From a virus: DNA of 29,990 nt. The translations under genes were made by a program, and so were the position numbers. Positions 6,172 to 20,170 of this stretch are shown here, piece after piece. The notes beneath the pieces are model-generated. The model searched no databases. It was given only the letters and a program-made list of their open reading frames with translations, and was not told where the DNA came from. Each line of letters opens with the position of its first letter. Within the stretch, counting starts at the first letter, position 1. The stretch is taken from positions 1-29,990 of the IMG/VR virus record IMGVR_UViG_3300020204_000252; one strand, given 5' to 3'.

Positions 6172-6588
6172 TTAGCAGAACCCCAAATCTTTTAAAATAG
6201 CAACAATGTCGGACAAGCGCATGACCGCGTAGGAATCACCAAGTGATTTTTCTCCCTTGCCGGGGCGTTTAACCACCAAAATGGGCAGGGCAGCTTGGCG
6301 AAAAGCAGTTTCAGAAAGGGGGGCATTGTCTAGTCGGACAGCCTGATCCACGGTGTCGTTAAGCCACTCACTTAACTTAAACGTTTTTTGATTCTTGCAT
6401 TGAATACAAGCTTTTCGGACAATAGTAACACCAGAATTGTGTCTGGTCTGCTCTATGCCGTGAATGTCTCCTTTATCTTGCCCGCCTTCCAACGCTGTGC
6501 GGTGGGCTTTCTCAAAGCCATTGGCGTTAAGATATTCACGTATGGCAGTCTCAAACGACGTGCCTTTGGCTTTATGTTTATTACCCAT
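6172..6588 (-). CDS. PD-(D/E)xK-type nuclease, Mrr/Hjc-like (QxK variant)
   Basis: I take the start as the ATG at 6588, which overlaps the 54-aa gene by 8 bp; longer in-frame starts would run through that gene. The 138-aa protein begins MGNKHKAKGTSFETAIREYL. E13 (in SFE), D41 (in GDIHG), and Q63-x-K65 (in CIQCKNQ) match the core of the restriction-endonuclease-like fold. Gln replaces the usual Glu of ExK, as in Mrr/McrC-type enzymes. Small nucleases of this type in phages act as Holliday-junction or branched-DNA resolvases before packaging, or as repair nucleases. The context of RecA, Cas4-like nuclease and DNA polymerase supports a recombination role. The exact substrate cannot be told from sequence. 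Confidence 0.8.
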   Translation of the reverse strand: MGNKHKAKGTSFETAIREYLNANGFEKAHRTALEGGQDKGDIHGIEQTRHNSGVTIVRKACIQCKNQKTFKLSEWLNDTVDQAVRLDNAPLSETAFRQAALPILVVKRPGKGEKSLGDSYAVMRLSDIVAILKDLGFC

Positions 6589-13761: not shown

Positions 13762-15303
13762 TTATACCTCGCTTGTTTTGAGAAAATCGCTGAGTGTTCC
13801 AAGTGTTAATTGATAACTGTTGTTGTAATCATATCCACCGTCAATGAACGCTTTGTTGATGTTGCGCTTCTCTTGAAGCATTTCATACTGACGCTCTTCG
13901 ACGCTTCCTTCCATGACCAACGCCACGATATTAACGTGGGTGTGTTCGGATGACAACCTGATGATTCGAGATTCCCGCTGATCTAGTTTACCGGCGCTCC
14001 ATGGCAGGTCATAGGAAATTAGGTAGTTAGCAATGGGCAAATCCAACCCATAGCCACCGGCATCTGAGGATAAGAACAAACGTACAGACTCGTCATTGGT
14101 GAACAATTGTTTTGCTGTATCTCGTTGGGCGTTATTCATTGTTCCGTCAAAAATAACGCTTTTAGTTAAATGTGCTGTTGCTTTTTGAATAAGTTTCAAG
14201 TTGTAGGTATAAAACGAAAACAATACAACTTTGTTCTTTGAATCTTCAGCAAGAACAGTTTCAAGGTATTCAATAAGCACCTCGAGTTTAGGTGATTTCA
14301 TTCGTGTAGCAATTACACCGCGACTAACGAGCTCATAAGCATATTCGCTACCTTGATTGTTAGTGGTTCCGTACAGGTGGGCTGACAACTGAACTAAATC
14401 TGGGTTGTCGCAAAACATACGTAGCGCGGTAATTTGTGACATGATTCGTCCCTGATCAGTTTTGTCTTGTCGACCAAAATAGTGAGTCCATAGGTCAAAG
14501 CCACGCCCAAATGATGTAATGGCTTTTTGAATGGAGTTAAGTAGTTCCTTGGCAATAATTCTGTATGCCTTTGCCCCGTCTTTATCAAAAGGAACTGGGA
14601 TGACTGAATGAATGATCTTGGGCAACTGATCTGCAATGTCTTCACGTCGTTTACGAATCATTGTCGTCTTTAACGTTTCACTCAATACGTCAAGATTTCT
14701 GTAACGCAATGGCTTACCAAACATTTTGTCTCTAACAATAAATGTCCGGTCAAATGTTTTAAAATCACCTAATAGTTTTGGATCAACAAATTGCATAATG
14801 GAAAACAATTCCTCTGGACGATTTTCAATGGGTTGGCCAGTAAGGGCGAACCGATAGTGGTAGGTCTTGCCAATCTTTTTTAGAATACGCGAACGTTGGG
14901 ACCTGGGGGTTTTAATCATTGTCGCTTCGTCAATAACCATTGCGTCAAAGCGGTGTTCTGAATAATACGAAAGATCTCGTTTTAAAGACTCTGGGTTGAC
15001 AATGACATATCGAGACCCAATTGATTTACGCCATTGGTCAATACGTGCTGACTGAGCCCCATCAATAACGGTTGAATGGGCATCTGTAAATTTTTGTATT
15101 TCTCGTTGCCATTGATACTTGAGTGCTGCCGGGACAACAATGAGAGCTTTTTGTATCTCTTTGCCCTCATGTAGGTGTTCTAGGGCTGCCAGCGTTGTAA
15201 CCGTCTTACCAGCACCCATGACGAGGGCAAGAAGCATTTGCCCACGTTCGACCATCGCGTCGACAGCCTCTTGTTGGAATGGGTAAAGTTTTCCGTTAAA
15301 CAC
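13762..15303 (-). CDS. SNF2/DEAD-like superfamily 2 helicase
   Basis: Two GTG starts are possible: 15303 (8-bp overlap with the primase gene, GGTGGA upstream) and 15333 (no Shine-Dalgarno); I prefer 15303, giving 513 aa. In order: a Q-motif-like LYPFQQEAVDAM, Walker A VMGAGKT (~29-34), KALIVVPAALKYQWQREI (motif Ia), Walker B VIDEATMIK, FALTGQPIENRPEEL (motif III), and a helicase C domain with VVLFSFYTYNLKL, LFLSSDAGGYGLDLP and DQRESRIIRL. The SSDAGGxGLDL...QRxxRxxR pattern is that of SNF2 proteins. These use ATP to translocate on double-stranded DNA; in phages they probably remove bound proteins or remodel forks. It sits after the primase in the replication operon. Confidence 0.9.
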   Translation of the reverse strand: MFNGKLYPFQQEAVDAMVERGQMLLALVMGAGKTVTTLAALEHLHEGKEIQKALIVVPAALKYQWQREIQKFTDAHSTVIDGAQSARIDQWRKSIGSRYVIVNPESLKRDLSYYSEHRFDAMVIDEATMIKTPRSQRSRILKKIGKTYHYRFALTGQPIENRPEELFSIMQFVDPKLLGDFKTFDRTFIVRDKMFGKPLRYRNLDVLSETLKTTMIRKRREDIADQLPKIIHSVIPVPFDKDGAKAYRIIAKELLNSIQKAITSFGRGFDLWTHYFGRQDKTDQGRIMSQITALRMFCDNPDLVQLSAHLYGTTNNQGSEYAYELVSRGVIATRMKSPKLEVLIEYLETVLAEDSKNKVVLFSFYTYNLKLIQKATAHLTKSVIFDGTMNNAQRDTAKQLFTNDESVRLFLSSDAGGYGLDLPIANYLISYDLPWSAGKLDQRESRIIRLSSEHTHVNIVALVMEGSVEERQYEMLQEKRNINKAFIDGGYDYNNSYQLTLGTLSDFLKTSEV

Positions 15304-16225
15304 TGGGGATCCACCATGGTAGTACTGACGCACCGGTAACTGCTTCGTAGATCTCAGAGTCCGTCATGTCACCAAGATCCTTAACAGACGTATGACGATA
15401 CCTTAACCATGTAACAGGGTTTTTAAAGGATGGGAGAGAAAGCTTTAATTTCTTTGCCGCGTTAATGCCAGCTTCGTCATTGTCTAGGGCCACAACTAAC
15501 TTGTTTACATATAGTGAAAGCAGGGCAATTTGGCTTTTGCTGATATGTGCGCCAAAGGATGCAAGACCACAGACCCCATCCATAACTGTGCTTAGCCTGA
15601 CCACATCAAGAGGGGACTCAACCAACACACAAGTACCTGAGTTGATGGAGTCAAGACCAAACAGAGTTTTTGATTTAGAAACGCCGGTGGGATAGTTAAG
15701 GACTCGAGACTTTGATTTAGATTGCCAACCCATTAATTCTCCTGTGGGTGCAACAATTGGAATGATCCATGACTGTGTTGATGTGTCCCACCGGATACCG
15801 TAACGACGCACTGCTTCCCTATCAAGGTTCTTTTCCTGTAGTCGAGCATCTGATGGTACGGAAAACTTGCTAAACGTAAACCAATCAATGGGTACAGCTT
15901 TCTCTTCTACCTTTGGAGTTGATATCCGATTAAGACTGTTAGTAATCAAAAACTTATGAATCGCAACGATGGAGTCTGTTTCCCCGGTGATTTCAGAAAC
16001 AAGTTGTGAAAGAGTTCCCCGTGCTCCACATGAGTAACAAATCCACAAGCCGGTATTGCCGTTCATCGACCACGACGGAGACTTATCCTCCTTGCCAGTG
16101 CGCTTAAGGTGGACTGGGCATCGAGCAGATATTTCTTTTTCTCCTGCCCTAATAACGTCAACGCCTAATCGACGCAGAACGTCAGCAAGATCAGTAGTAC
16201 CAGTTGTCGGTGTCATTGTCATCAT
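15296..16225 (-). CDS. DNA primase (CHC2 zinc finger plus Toprim)
   Basis: The start is the ATG at 16225, preceded by GGAG nine bases upstream and overlapping the helicase gene by 35 bp. The 309-aa protein has a CHC2-type zinc finger (C36-x2-H39 in RCPVH, C63-x2-C66 in CYSC) and a Toprim domain with E203 (CVLVESPLDVV) and D248-x-D250 (VVALDNDEAG). It is much shorter than bacterial DnaG (about 580 aa): the helicase-binding C-terminal domain is absent and the RNA-polymerase core is compact. It makes RNA primers for lagging-strand synthesis. Co-transcription after the DnaB-like helicase suggests primase and helicase work as separate partner proteins rather than a T7-like fusion. Confidence 0.93.
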   Translation of the reverse strand: MMTMTPTTGTTDLADVLRRLGVDVIRAGEKEISARCPVHLKRTGKEDKSPSWSMNGNTGLWICYSCGARGTLSQLVSEITGETDSIVAIHKFLITNSLNRISTPKVEEKAVPIDWFTFSKFSVPSDARLQEKNLDREAVRRYGIRWDTSTQSWIIPIVAPTGELMGWQSKSKSRVLNYPTGVSKSKTLFGLDSINSGTCVLVESPLDVVRLSTVMDGVCGLASFGAHISKSQIALLSLYVNKLVVALDNDEAGINAAKKLKLSLPSFKNPVTWLRYRHTSVKDLGDMTDSEIYEAVTGASVLPWWIPSV

Positions 16226-17453
16226 CGGTATCGTCTCCTACTTCGGTGAAATTCATATTTGCCCAATCCCAGTTAATCTTGATTTCCCCAAGAGGAGCCG
16301 AGCGAGCAAGTACTACGCGAATAATGGCTTGATCTTCAATATCTGGGTCGGCTTCAACACCAAGCACTAGGTCTGAGTCTTGGGCAAACGAAGACGTGTA
16401 ACCGATTGCATCAGACGTAATCTTTCTAGATTTTCTGTTATTTAGTTTCCATGACAGAACCTGGGTGGTTCCGACAATGGGGATGTCTTCATTCTGTGCC
16501 ACACGCTTTAATGCACGAGTGATGTTGGTCAGGGCTTGTGGAGAACCCTTTGGCTCTCCGTTTTCGTCATCCATCAAATACACACCGTCAACAAACAAAA
16601 TGTCCGGTTTGTATTCTTTAATTTTTGCGGCCAGTGCACCGACTGTTGTAAGAGAAGACGTGTCTTCAGTGATGATGAATGGGTGCATGTTCTTGCGCAT
16701 GCGTAACGTATTTGAAACCTTTTCAAGTTCCTGTTCGCTCATAGATCCACGCAAGATGTTGCTGTAGGGAACACCAGCAACAATTGCGTCGTATCGAGCA
16801 GCTTGTTCATCTGCTGACATTTCAAAGGAAACAAACAGTGGTGTCTTACCGTGTAGGTGGGCGGCGTTTGCCATGTACAGCGTCATAAGCGATTTACCAC
16901 GCTTTGCTTCACCAACAAAGGTAATCAACTGCTGTGGTCGGAGTCCAGAGGTAATGCGGTCAAGACCAAGTAGCCCGGTGGGAATTCCACGAAGTCCGTT
17001 GGGTGTTTTTTGCAACTCAATGTATTTCTCAACACGTTGTTCCCATGTCTCAATAAGGTTTACATCTCGAAGCCTGGTGGTGTCAGTAGTGGCTTTGTTT
17101 ACGCCTCTAGTCAGCAGGGTTAGGGCCGCATCAACGGCGCTTTGTTCCAGCGCTGGCATTGCTTCTGCGACTGCTTCTAGCAAACTCCTGTGTTTATACG
17201 CTTTGTAAACCTCTTCAATCAACCCACTAAACGGCTCTTTAGAAGCGTCAACAAGCGTAATGTCGCCAAACTGTTGCTTGACTGCTCGAGCAGTTGGAAC
17301 CGAGTTGTGTTCTCTCCAGTAGATCAGAACCCATTCCCAAACCTGTCCCCATGTTTGAGTGAAGTGAATGTTCTTGACACCAAGCTTCAGTGGATGGGTG
17401 ATGTTCTGGTCTTGAATGACCTTGCTGATAAGAAGGTGTTCTGCACTAGCCAT
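16191..17453 (-). CDS. dnaB: DnaB-like replicative helicase
   Basis: The start is taken at the ATG at 17453 (MASAEHLLISKVIQDQNITH), which overlaps the previous stop by one base (TAATG). The 420-aa protein has a DnaB-like N-terminal helical domain (~1-130), a linker, and a RecA-fold domain from GIPTGLLGLDRITSGL with Walker A GEAKRGKS (181-188), FVSFEMSADEQAARYDA, Walker B DILFVDGVYLM (D289) and a sensor region IPIVGTTQVL. This is a hexameric 5'-3' helicase for fork unwinding. It ends in an acidic tail (GDDTDDDNDTDNWYY). The DnaC-like loader two genes upstream would load it, and the primase follows. Confidence 0.93.
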   Translation of the reverse strand: MASAEHLLISKVIQDQNITHPLKLGVKNIHFTQTWGQVWEWVLIYWREHNSVPTARAVKQQFGDITLVDASKEPFSGLIEEVYKAYKHRSLLEAVAEAMPALEQSAVDAALTLLTRGVNKATTDTTRLRDVNLIETWEQRVEKYIELQKTPNGLRGIPTGLLGLDRITSGLRPQQLITFVGEAKRGKSLMTLYMANAAHLHGKTPLFVSFEMSADEQAARYDAIVAGVPYSNILRGSMSEQELEKVSNTLRMRKNMHPFIITEDTSSLTTVGALAAKIKEYKPDILFVDGVYLMDDENGEPKGSPQALTNITRALKRVAQNEDIPIVGTTQVLSWKLNNRKSRKITSDAIGYTSSFAQDSDLVLGVEADPDIEDQAIIRVVLARSAPLGEIKINWDWANMNFTEVGDDTDDDNDTDNWYY

Positions 17454-17893
17454 TACAAGTTCCAACTTGTTTCAGGAGTAACTACAGTTGCCTTCATGCC
17501 AATCCTTCTTGCGTATTCTTGGTCTGCGACGTAGATGGTTTTAATTTCTGGAAAAAACTTTGAGGTCTCTGTCAAATCATCTATGTCAGCGTAGGGGACC
17601 ACAGTAGTAGAGATGTTGCGCTTAATCAACCACCGGTCAATTGCTTCGGCAACTTCAACCGGAAGAAGTGTGTATACAACTACGCCAATTTGTTTTCGAT
17701 TAATGGTGTCAATTACGTGTTTTAATGGAATCTCATGTGCTTTCCAATAGGTGAGGTATGCATCATAATCGTTAGCTCGTAGGCGGATGTTCGCAATGAC
17801 CTTACCTAGTGTATCGGGTGGTGAGGCCAGTACCCCTTCAAAAAGTACGGCGAGTCCCGGTGGGGCGTATGCGGAAATGTCACCCCTCTCCAC
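17453..17893 (-). CDS. Hypothetical protein, 146 aa
   Basis: The frame is open to an upstream ATG at 17989, but that would overlap the loader gene by 110 bp. A GTG at 17893 has an ideal Shine-Dalgarno (GGAGAGCCA-GTG) and overlaps by only 14 bp, so I choose it. The protein begins VERGDISAYAPPGLAVLFEG and alternates strands and helices (GVVVYTLLPVEVAEAIDRWL, NISTTVVPYADIDDL, IKTIYVADQEYARRIG), suggesting a Rossmann-like or HAD-like alpha/beta fold. No catalytic motif can be assigned. It sits between the helicase loader and the helicase, so a replication accessory role is likely (inference). Confidence 0.65.
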   Translation of the reverse strand: MERGDISAYAPPGLAVLFEGVLASPPDTLGKVIANIRLRANDYDAYLTYWKAHEIPLKHVIDTINRKQIGVVVYTLLPVEVAEAIDRWLIKRNISTTVVPYADIDDLTETSKFFPEIKTIYVADQEYARRIGMKATVVTPETSWNL

Positions 17894-18527
17894 TGGCTCT
17901 CCATAGTCGGTAATCGCCACCAAGAAATGGAATGAACAAACAACAGTCGGTGATAATTGACGAAAGTCTGTTCCCATAAATTTGAGCAAGCTTTTTCATG
18001 GGGATGTCTGTTGTGATGATTGTTGGTAACTGATTCTCATATCGTTTACTTAACATAGATGTAAGCGACTTCTTTGCAAATTCTGTTTGCCTTCGTTCAG
18101 TACCTAACCCATCAAGAACCAGCAGATCGTAAACATTGTCAATGTAATGAACCGTATCTGCATCAGATGATTCATCGTCGTATCGTTCGTCATCTAAGGC
18201 CGAATAGGAAACATCAAGATATTGTTCTGCTGTAATGAAATACCCACATGTTTCTGTTGTGGCAACTGCTCGTTTCAAAATAGACGTAGCAATGTGGGTT
18301 TTACCACTTCCGGTTCCGCCAAACAAATACAACCCAGTGCCTTCGTTTAAGTTCTGTTCAACGTTGTTTACCCAGTGCCGTGCGTATAAAACAACATCTT
18401 GACTTCCGTGTTCTTCATCATAGTTATCAAGGGTTGCGGCCAGATATTTTTTAGGGATCTTTGTGTTATGGAGTCGTTCCTCTAGGGGTCTCTTTCTCCA
18501 GTATTTTTGACTCTTAAGCTCAGCCAT
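17880..18527 (-). CDS. dnaC: DnaC-like helicase loader (AAA+ ATPase)
   Basis: The start is the ATG at 18527 with a Shine-Dalgarno (AAAGGAAATAAAA), overlapping the previous gene by 8 bp. The 215-aa protein begins MAELKSQKYWRKRPLEERLH. It has P-KKYLAATLDNYD before the ATPase, Walker A GGTGSGKT (70-77), Walker B LLVLDGLG (D139), a sensor region TIITTDIPMKKL and R187 in YGNRLSSII, the arginine-finger position of the DnaC/IstB family. The loader places the DnaB-like helicase on origin DNA melted by the initiator. The initiator gene, loader and helicase all lie within one operon here. Confidence 0.9.
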   Translation of the reverse strand: MAELKSQKYWRKRPLEERLHNTKIPKKYLAATLDNYDEEHGSQDVVLYARHWVNNVEQNLNEGTGLYLFGGTGSGKTHIATSILKRAVATTETCGYFITAEQYLDVSYSALDDERYDDESSDADTVHYIDNVYDLLVLDGLGTERRQTEFAKKSLTSMLSKRYENQLPTIITTDIPMKKLAQIYGNRLSSIITDCCLFIPFLGGDYRLWRASGEG

Positions 18528-18924
18528 TTTTATTTCCTTTTTTGAAGCGCTTGTCAACAGTATACGACTCGTAGGTGTAGGTATTCGATCCAATTTTTAT
18601 TTTTTCATACAAAGAATCTAATCGAGAAACAAAGCCCCGCCACGCCGGAATAGCGGTTGGTAGGGGAGCCTGTTTGATGTCGTGTGCAAACTGATCAATC
18701 ATCAAAACAATTTCATCGTTGGATATTCCACGTTGTCGTAAATTCTTAAATGCCTTCATTAAAGCCACGCCGTTTACTGGAGCTGACAACGTCATCGTTG
18801 TTGGAATTACGGTGTCTTTAAAATAATAAACAAGTGACTTTAACGACGTTTTCTTTTTTGGTTGAACAACAACTTTTTCTTCATCGTCTTCACCTAGCGC
18901 CTTACCCCATGAATCAGAAATCAT
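18520..18924 (-). CDS. Hypothetical protein, 134 aa
   Basis: It begins MISDSWGKALGEDDEEKVVV; the start overlaps the previous stop by ATGA. It has an acidic N-terminus, a basic patch (QPKKKTSLKSLVYYFKD), a helical middle (GVALMKAFKNLRQRGISNDE and IVLMIDQFAHDIKQ) and a basic end (DKRFKKGNKNG). No named family is recognised. The position between the initiator-side genes and the DnaC-like loader suggests a primosome component, for example a bridging protein, but this is inference only. Confidence 0.7.
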   Translation of the reverse strand: MISDSWGKALGEDDEEKVVVQPKKKTSLKSLVYYFKDTVIPTTMTLSAPVNGVALMKAFKNLRQRGISNDEIVLMIDQFAHDIKQAPLPTAIPAWRGFVSRLDSLYEKIKIGSNTYTYESYTVDKRFKKGNKNG

Positions 18925-19478
18925 GTCAACGATTCATGGAGTGCTTCATGCATTTCTGCAAGCTCTTCTTTAAATGTTTCCACGTCCTCATCTTGAACCA
19001 TGATCGATATTGCCATTGAAAAAAGATTACTAGTGTGTGCATTTACCAACGCAATGGGTGTTGAGTACTGCACTCGATGTTCAAGTAGATCGGTGGCCCA
19101 TTGATTAAACACATTCTTGCGTCTACCAATTTCATCGTCGTATCCACCGGTTGTCCACCCGTCTACTACGCACGTCCATCCAGGAAGTGTGATGTCCATG
19201 TACCCGCGCCACATGCTGGTAGAAACCCACTGTGCTCTTACTTTGAGAGGTTTTTTTCGCCACATAATCGGAGAATCGCCGTACTCATCCAATTGAACAA
19301 AGTTAGCAATGTAATACGTTGAGACCTCTTCACCGTCAACAATAAAAATTGTTTCGCAGTTGTCTAGGTCGGCGCTGTAACAACTTTCGCAGATCGGACC
19401 GTCGCCATCTTCGGGGTACCAAGAAAAATCATTTTCCTCAATTTTGGCTTCACACAAAACACAGGCGGTTGGGTACAT
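18921..19478 (-). CDS. Hypothetical protein with N-terminal zinc-binding motif, 185 aa
   Basis: A strong Shine-Dalgarno (GGAGGAATGAT) precedes the ATG at 19478. C6-x2-C9 (ACVLCEAKI) and C30-x2-C33 (ICESCYSAD) form a single zinc site of LIM/treble-clef type. The rest is a beta-rich middle with many Trp residues (VRAQWVSTSMWRGYMDITLP, GWTCVVDGWTTGG) and an acidic helical C-terminus (DVETFKEELAEMHEAL). No family is recognised. It is the first gene after the initiator in the replication operon, which suggests a replication-associated role. Confidence 0.72.
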   Translation of the reverse strand: MYPTACVLCEAKIEENDFSWYPEDGDGPICESCYSADLDNCETIFIVDGEEVSTYYIANFVQLDEYGDSPIMWRKKPLKVRAQWVSTSMWRGYMDITLPGWTCVVDGWTTGGYDDEIGRRKNVFNQWATDLLEHRVQYSTPIALVNAHTSNLFSMAISIMVQDEDVETFKEELAEMHEALHESLT

Positions 19479-19479
19479 A

Positions 19480-20019
19480 TCATTCCTCCGTTTTGGGATC
19501 TGGCTTAAGTTGCTGTCTCCACTTGGGATCAGTGTTAAACAAATCTAGTACACCATTAGACCTCCGCCCCCGGGTCTTGTCTTGGTTTAGATTAGTCTTT
19601 CTTGATTGGGTGTCACCAGTGACACCCCCAAGGGGTGTCTGGCGTGGCACTGGGGGGGTGTCAGGTGTGACACTGCTCTCGGGGAGGGTGTCTGACGCGA
19701 CACCCCTAATTCGAGCCATTGGATTGTTGAAGTCGATCATGTACTTGTTGGTCAACTGCCGACCACCTTTGCCGTGTCGGTGGTTGAGCTCAATCACCCC
19801 AACTTCGTGAAGTCTTGCCATTGCCCTAATGACTGTGCGTCGGCTATACCCAGTCTTTTCTGCCAGATGCTCATACGAGGTGGTTAGTTCTTGCGTTTCG
19901 TTGTTTAAATACTCTAGGGCTGTAACCAGCACGTGGAGCGATACAGAATCGCCCTTGATGTAGTTCATTACCCACTTTGGGACTGGTATAAACGGTCCTC
20001 CAAACTTGCTTCCTGCCAT
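19480..20019 (-). CDS. Winged-helix replication initiator-like protein containing the origin iterons
   Basis: The start at 20019 has a strong Shine-Dalgarno (AAAGGAAGCAACC). The 179-aa protein has an N-terminal winged HTH (residues ~25-95): SLHVLVTALEYLNN, then LTTSYEHLAEKTGYSRRTVI and RAMARLHEVGVIEL. A Pro/Thr linker (~103-140) follows, whose DNA holds four 20-bp iterons, then a short basic C-terminus. This is the layout of lambda-type O initiators: N-terminal DNA-binding domain, iteron-bearing middle and a C-terminus that contacts the helicase loader; here the C-terminus is much shorter than in O. It heads the replication operon right after the only real intergenic gap. The DNA-binding fold is clear; the initiator role is inferred from iterons and neighbours. 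A transcription regulator is the alternative. Confidence 0.8.
   Translation of the reverse strand: MAGSKFGGPFIPVPKWVMNYIKGDSVSLHVLVTALEYLNNETQELTTSYEHLAEKTGYSRRTVIRAMARLHEVGVIELNHRHGKGGRQLTNKYMIDFNNPMARIRGVASDTLPESSVTPDTPPVPRQTPLGGVTGDTQSRKTNLNQDKTRGRRSNGVLDLFNTDPKWRQQLKPDPKTEE
19608..19705. repeat. Four 20-bp iterons inside the initiator gene; candidate replication origin
   Basis: On the plus strand, gapless 20-bp copies start at 19608 (GGGTGTCACCAGTGACACCC), 19633 (GGGTGTCTGGCGTGGCACTG), 19656 (GGGTGTCAGGTGTGACACTG) and 19686 (GGGTGTCTGACGCGACACCC). Positions 1-7 and the later CAC are invariant. Copy 1 has 9-bp inverted arms around 2 bp and copy 4 has 7-bp arms around 6 bp, so each iteron is a dyad suited to a dimeric protein. 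The spacings (25, 23 and 30 bp) are not all multiples of three, so the repetition is kept at DNA level and not as a peptide repeat. Confidence 0.82.
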
Positions 20020-20075: not shown

Positions 20076-20115
20076 TGAATCCGCAGCTGGCCTTCGGGAA
20101 TACAACTGCGGTCCT

Positions 20116-20170
20116 GTGGGGGTTTGTGGCCGGGGGGTTTTCCTTCCTTCTTGACCCCGGCCCCCCCCAC
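20116..20170 (-). repeat. GC-rich inverted repeat / hairpin
   Basis: GGCCGGGG (20128-20135) is the reverse complement of CCCCGGCC (20155-20162), with a 19-base loop. The outer GTGGGGG (20116-20122) can pair with CCCCCAC (20164-20170), extending the stem after a bulge. In the leftward transcript the hairpin follows the 216-aa gene by a few bases. It is not followed by a U-tract, so a classical intrinsic terminator is not supported. An eight-C run (20161-20168) is a likely slippage site. Confidence 0.6.

Follow-up and report, generated by a model that had tools for sequence, protein, structure and literature searches.

The window, by which we mean the whole stretch of DNA that was analysed, is 29,990 bases long and represents an entire IMG/VR contig. 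Its minus strand carries a gene for a winged-helix protein of 179 amino acids, with replication genes downstream and, inside its own coding sequence, a cluster of dyad repeats (iterons):

15296–16225, minus strand: DnaG-type primase with zinc ribbon and Toprim domains (phrog_47, 6.8e-44).
16191–17465, minus strand: DnaB-type replicative helicase (Pfam DnaB_C, 8.8e-30; phrog_19, 2.4e-61).
17880–18593, minus strand: DnaC/IstB-type AAA+ helicase loader (Pfam IstB_IS21, 2.7e-11; phrog_50, DnaC-like helicase loader, 2.8e-41).
18520–18924, minus strand: conserved helical protein of 134 aa, candidate partner of the initiator, found in 65/65 relatives and sharing a D-x-R-L/W-type tail with the initiator.
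19480–20019, minus strand: initiator gene, 179 aa, recognized by Pfam HTH_36, by PHROG replication initiation profiles, and by its AlphaFold2 model.
19575–19609, minus strand: presumed DNA unwinding element, the conserved CCAATCAAGA and, after it, an A-rich coding strand.
19610–19625, minus strand: iteron 4, GTGTCACTGGTGACAC, its outer 6+6 bases a perfect palindrome.
19635–19650, minus strand: iteron 3, GTGCCACGCCAGACAC, with one half-site mismatch.
19658–19673, minus strand: iteron 2, GTGTCACACCTGACAC.
19688–19703, minus strand: iteron 1 (numbered in coding order), GTGTCGCGTCAGACAC.
19801–19842, minus strand: codons of the predicted recognition helix (residues 60–73, from the model helices), in which residue 61 covaries with the half-site.
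19837–19839, minus strand: Arg61 codon.

In 65/65 relatives, the genes for the initiator, the 134-aa protein, the DnaC-type loader, a further conserved ORF, DnaB, and primase are found together, bearing out an earlier proposal that the initiator gene heads a loader-helicase-primase order. A SNF2 helicase gene lies alongside in 59/65, and an ORF at 18921–19478, between the initiator and the 134-aa gene, is restricted to close relatives (7/65). The preliminary description had also assigned the phage a PolA-type replisome and a myovirus-type (contractile) tail; profile searches of the window proteins agree with the former, and the presence of baseplate genes with the latter.

We then examined the initiator protein. 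It matches Pfam HTH_36 (2.9e-7) as well as PHROGs annotated as replication initiation or O-like (best 1.5e-13). Its AlphaFold2 model, which is confident for the domain only (block mean pLDDT of 75–87 over residues 21–80), places a helix-turn-helix at residues 49–56 and 60–73 with the wing after it. Overall, the protein consists of a winged helix (residues ∼10–98), a disordered linker (101–149), and a short C-terminal tail. A PDB fold search returned generic winged helices, including DnaD and a Rep–DNA complex, none of them below 0.001. Direct alignment of the initiator with lambda O was not significant, and the profile match to P22 gp18 was weak (P 8e-4); matches to phrog_345 and phrog_678 are common to all three proteins. 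As judged from sequence, the link to lambda O and P22 gp18 runs through shared PHROG profiles. The match to phrog_391 covers the N-terminal half only (residues 20–117), and the protein ends at 179 aa. The initiator may also regulate its own expression. A promoter scan near the gene gave nothing above chance; in the gap upstream of it, at window positions ∼20112–20165, a GC-rich inverted repeat (CTGTGGGGG ... CCCCCCCACAG) was spotted by eye.

The window contains four ungapped repeats starting at 19608, 19633, 19656, and 19686, with spacings of 25, 23, and 30 and one copy out of frame with the other three, just as the preliminary description had stated. Its consensus, however, had to be revised: GGGTGTCN5GNGNCAC is one N too long and fails to match any of the four repeats even when two mismatches are allowed, and the repeat unit, given as 20 bp, measures 16–18 bp. 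The corrected string is GGGTGTCN4GNGNCAC (18 bp), with the 16-bp dyad GTGTCN6GACAC as its conserved core. Allowing at most one mismatch, this core occurs six times in 30 kb compared with 0.88 expected (0/100 shuffles reach six), and four of the six copies fall within a single 94-bp stretch. When the whole window was scanned for groups of four similar dyads spaced as in an origin, this was the only set. The repeats lie, as proposed, in the linker-coding part of the gene, encoding the stretch 101–149 that is disordered in the AlphaFold2 model. Synonymous recoding of the window's initiator gene never reached the observed iteron score, either with phage codon usage (0/3000) or with the gene's own codons (0/3000).

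To follow the repeats across relatives, we fetched homologues by protein patterns rather than by the repeat, which yielded 80 distinct ones in IMG/VR. At least four dyads are present in 79 of the 80, including every intact gene (79). The lone exception (L057) has one iteron joined directly to the downstream A-rich stretch, with the reading frame broken (6230–6420), and looks like an assembly collapse or a natural deletion between repeats. Two homologues (L083 and L147) apparently have five GTGWCN6GWCAC sites, the extra iteron lying 18 bp away (contig G014, 30794–30897); for L083, all five are visible in its contig. Spacing sets are few (e.g., 30-23-25, 24-23-25, 22-24-24, and 24-22-24), and the copies are never all in one reading frame in any of the 79 genes. 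The iteron arms are near-invariant and the centre is variable, a contrast that is partly built in, as the site caller prefers palindromes. With 150 codon shuffles per gene, no shuffle reached the observed score in 75/76 genes. The repeats are therefore conserved beyond codon constraint. Moreover, in four homologues (L061, L078, L084, and L087), iteron 4 and the adjoining CCAA..AAGA stretch are read in another frame, such that the DNA is kept and the peptide replaced. Together with the out-of-frame copies and the two recodings of the window gene, these cases uphold the earlier suggestion that selection acts on DNA rather than peptide, and the frame-shifted iteron 4 is its clearest sign.

In nearly every gene, iteron 4 is followed by CCAA and then by A-rich coding-strand DNA. 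AT content in the 50 bp past iteron 4 averages 68.5% across the family, against 52.5% over the opening part of the gene, and ACAAGARTAA-like repeats occur downstream of iteron 4 at 2.1 per 60 bp compared with 0.6 in shuffles. By this measure, the window has only a weak A-rich stretch, at 50% AT across 50 bp.

Among the matches listed for 16 contigs of 60–97 kb, the only motif cluster is the one in the initiator gene, in line with what the preliminary description had anticipated; single stray motifs number 0–4 per contig compared with 0–2 for a reversed control pattern, again among the matches listed. Two of the 16 have end repeats of at least 100 bp and are probably complete, and there, too, the cluster is unique. 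The cluster is likewise present in contig G013. Almost every gene is encoded on the same strand, which left GC skew, computed for the window and for three long contigs, without a readable inflection.

We next asked how half-sites relate to the recognition helix, counting them by residue 61 over 76 genes. With Arg61 (59 genes), half-sites are GTGTC (343) or GTGAC (124), and with Ser61 (8 genes), they are GTGTC (63) with no GTGAC. The single Ile61 gene (L080) has GTATC in 7/8 half-sites, and the Thr61 genes (8) have GTAGC (44), GTAGT (10), and others (10). On a tree built without helix columns 59–62, replacement of Arg or Ser61 by Thr or Ile arose three times (the L055 clade, L080, and L115), each time accompanied by a G-to-A change at half-site base 3. 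The preliminary description had named covariation of iterons and recognition helix across relatives as a test, and these three events come out in its favour. They are too few for a formal independent-pairs test; a crude branch-length estimate gives 4e-6, which assumes random placement of changes and is indicative only. In L115 (Thr61), the half-sites are mixed and the change is part-way (3/8). L172 and L219, which have Ser61 and are related to the Thr clade, carry one and three GTAGC half-sites, respectively, and the residue-61 code suggested by these sequences is therefore a tendency, not strict, in that sites can be mixed during change. GTAGY sites are confined to the initiator gene of a Thr61 phage, plus one stray elsewhere.

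Several other explanations for such a cluster can be weighed against these data. The protein could instead regulate transcription of the replication operon, with the dyads as operators inside the gene; its winged-helix domain also resembles transcription regulators, and clustered dyads can serve as operators. However, the sites occupy the 3′ half of the coding sequence, a long way from any promoter (the nearby promoter scan being empty), the PHROG matches are to replication initiators, no copies occur at other operons among the matches listed, and the conserved A-rich stretch after iteron 4 would serve no purpose in an operator. We regard this explanation as unlikely. That the dyads form mRNA stem-loops controlling translation or termination is more improbable still, although a 5–6 bp stem is possible at each site and both arms change together. 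The fourth pair is nonpairing in 105/316 sites (78 A.A and 20 T.T), and at all four sites in eight genes; G.U pairs are nearly absent, and covariation with the recognition helix would be left unexplained. We rejected the RNA stem, as an unpaired fourth position fits a protein half-site that accepts T or A.

Clustered repeats inside phage genes can also be packaging or partition sites, and the cluster might be a pac or partition site that happens to fall in the initiator gene. Yet the site sequence tracks the helix of the very gene that holds the sites, and the surrounding genes encode loader, helicase, and primase rather than terminase or par functions, leaving this explanation with very little probability. 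Least credible of all is a repeat at the level of the linker peptide, or chance, with no function in DNA. GVT.DT-like peptides do recur in the linker, but linker peptides differ widely, no gene among the 79 has its copies in a single frame, codon shuffles fail to recreate the sites, and the frame-shifted copies in relatives contradict it.

We conclude that the window cluster is very probably the phage's replication origin, situated inside its own initiator gene. Features found here that are typical of in-gene origins are an initiator-type domain, spaced repeats conserved as DNA, an AT-rich element, and loader and helicase genes close downstream. From the sites, their DNA-level conservation, the helix covariation, the A-rich stretch, and the gene order, we infer that the initiator binds here, that the strands open, that the loader is recruited, and that the region acts as an origin. 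In this scheme, the winged-helix protein would occupy each of the four 16-bp dyads as a dimer, every subunit contacting a single half-site; residue 61, at the N terminus of the recognition helix, would read bases 3 and 4 of that half-site. The resulting initiator–iteron complex would strain the DNA and open the A-rich stretch beside iteron 4. The DnaC-type loader would be recruited via the C-terminal tail of the initiator, probably also via the 134-aa neighbour, and would place the phage DnaB helicase at the opened stretch; the phage primase and PolA-type polymerase would come after the helicase.

The 134-aa neighbour is modelled as a compact helical domain (pLDDT ∼90 at residues 51–110) and has no Pfam, PHROG, or PDB match. 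Both it and the initiator usually end in an (I/V/T)D-x-(R/K)-(L/W/F) tail (IDPRL type), which we found near the C terminus of 54/79 initiators and 58/78 of the 134-aa partners. The motif is absent among 77–118 sequences each of ORF_17453, DnaB, primase, and SNF2, and its background is ∼9% of all ORFs. Within a phage, the initiator and partner tails often agree in detail (VDSRL/VDSRL in L219 and IDPRLK/IDPRLK in L054), and L084 has the pair YEDL..DERI/YEDL..DHRI. In one group of relatives, the motif is missing from both proteins; the two tails vary and disappear in parallel. The simplest reading of these sequences is that the shared tail reflects a common docking partner of the initiator and the 134-aa protein. 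We tentatively extend this to a two-part initiator, a possibility to which we give somewhat less than even chances: a short origin binder and the 134-aa protein, docking by the same tail on one partner (loader or helicase), would stand in for the C-terminal domain that is fused in lambda O, and the origin would evolve by the residue-61/half-site code.

We compared this arrangement with known systems. In lambda, four dyad iterons also lie in the middle of the initiator gene, spaced 20, 24, and 23 and in three frames, and are followed by the A-rich ACACAAAAGACACTATTACAAAAG, which matches the window family in strand and side; the winged-helix initiators share PHROG profiles with this family. In contrast, lambda O has 299 aa with a C-terminal domain and the window initiator has 179. 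The part of O that meets the P-type loader corresponds to phrog_391 positions 133–288 and is missing from the window initiator. Gene P follows O in lambda, and host DnaB is used, whereas the window phage has a DnaC-type loader and its own helicase, primase, and polymerase. The label "lambdoid-style" used in the preliminary description is thus apt in the sense of working alike, but not as a statement of membership: the window phage lacks both the C-terminal domain of lambda O and a P-type loader, and its initiator does not align significantly with lambda O.

According to PMC8022706, the iterons bound in lambda, P22, and L lie within their coding regions and differ from phage to phage. P22 and L (gene 18 with gene 12) resemble the window phage in having in-gene iterons that vary between phages and a phage-encoded DnaB-type helicase. 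A-rich repeats of this kind, ACACAAAAGACAATATACAAAAGACAATAAA, also occur in the P22 ori, whose orientation and A-rich strand agree with those of the window family. These phages differ in iteron sequence and in having the helicase gene directly next, without a separate DnaC-type loader or a 134-aa partner. In the Bacillus phage SPP1, oriL lies within gene 38, whose product gp38 is the initiator, and gp39 and gp40 are the loader and a DnaB-type helicase (PMC6316719). By description, SPP1 likewise has repeats and an AT-rich element inside the initiator gene, and, as in the window phage, initiator, loader, and DnaB-type helicase are all phage-encoded (PMC6316719). Its repeats, however, are described as direct, a second origin (oriR) lies ∼13 kb away, and it uses host primase and polymerases where the window phage has its own primase and PolA (PMC6316719). 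On this comparison, SPP1 genes 38-39-40 would be at least as close a parallel as lambda.

As in-gene iterons or origins have been described for lambda, P22, and L (PMC8022706) and for SPP1 (PMC6316719), the design of an origin within the initiator gene is already known. In the literature, we found no earlier account of this family, of a short initiator without the fused C-terminal domain, or of a natural specificity series, and no characterized origin for this uncultured actinobacterial phage group. To our knowledge, few replication origins have been characterized in phages of actinobacteria. The family provides 79 natural origin–initiator pairs with at least three specificity changes and mixed intermediates (L115 and L219). 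With the origin inside the gene, any base change in a site may alter the protein, and a change of specificity can be tested with one residue and one base. The origin fragment could also be tried for plasmids in hard-to-grow actinobacteria.

WhiB genes, an actinophage marker (PMC10202952), are present in 11/12 long contigs, and these sequences point to actinobacteria as the hosts. Each of 11 long relatives (G001, G005, G007, G009, and G011–G017) has two WhiB-like genes. No relatives were confirmed in cellular genomes. The nearest isolates by DnaB and RecA are the Streptomyces phages BRock and GiJojo, in which we found neither an initiator homologue nor iterons clustered near the loader gene. 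A weak initiator homologue (E 4e-6) does occur in an isolated actinobacterial phage, as gp44 of Arthrobacter phage Klevey, which differs in being a larger protein with a C-terminal part. The linker-coding part of the Klevey gene (L200, 4285–4332) carries a 2 × 24-nt tandem repeat, GGGGGTCCCCCCCCTGAAAACCGA, whose two copies differ in sequence from the iterons and are perhaps another in-gene origin.
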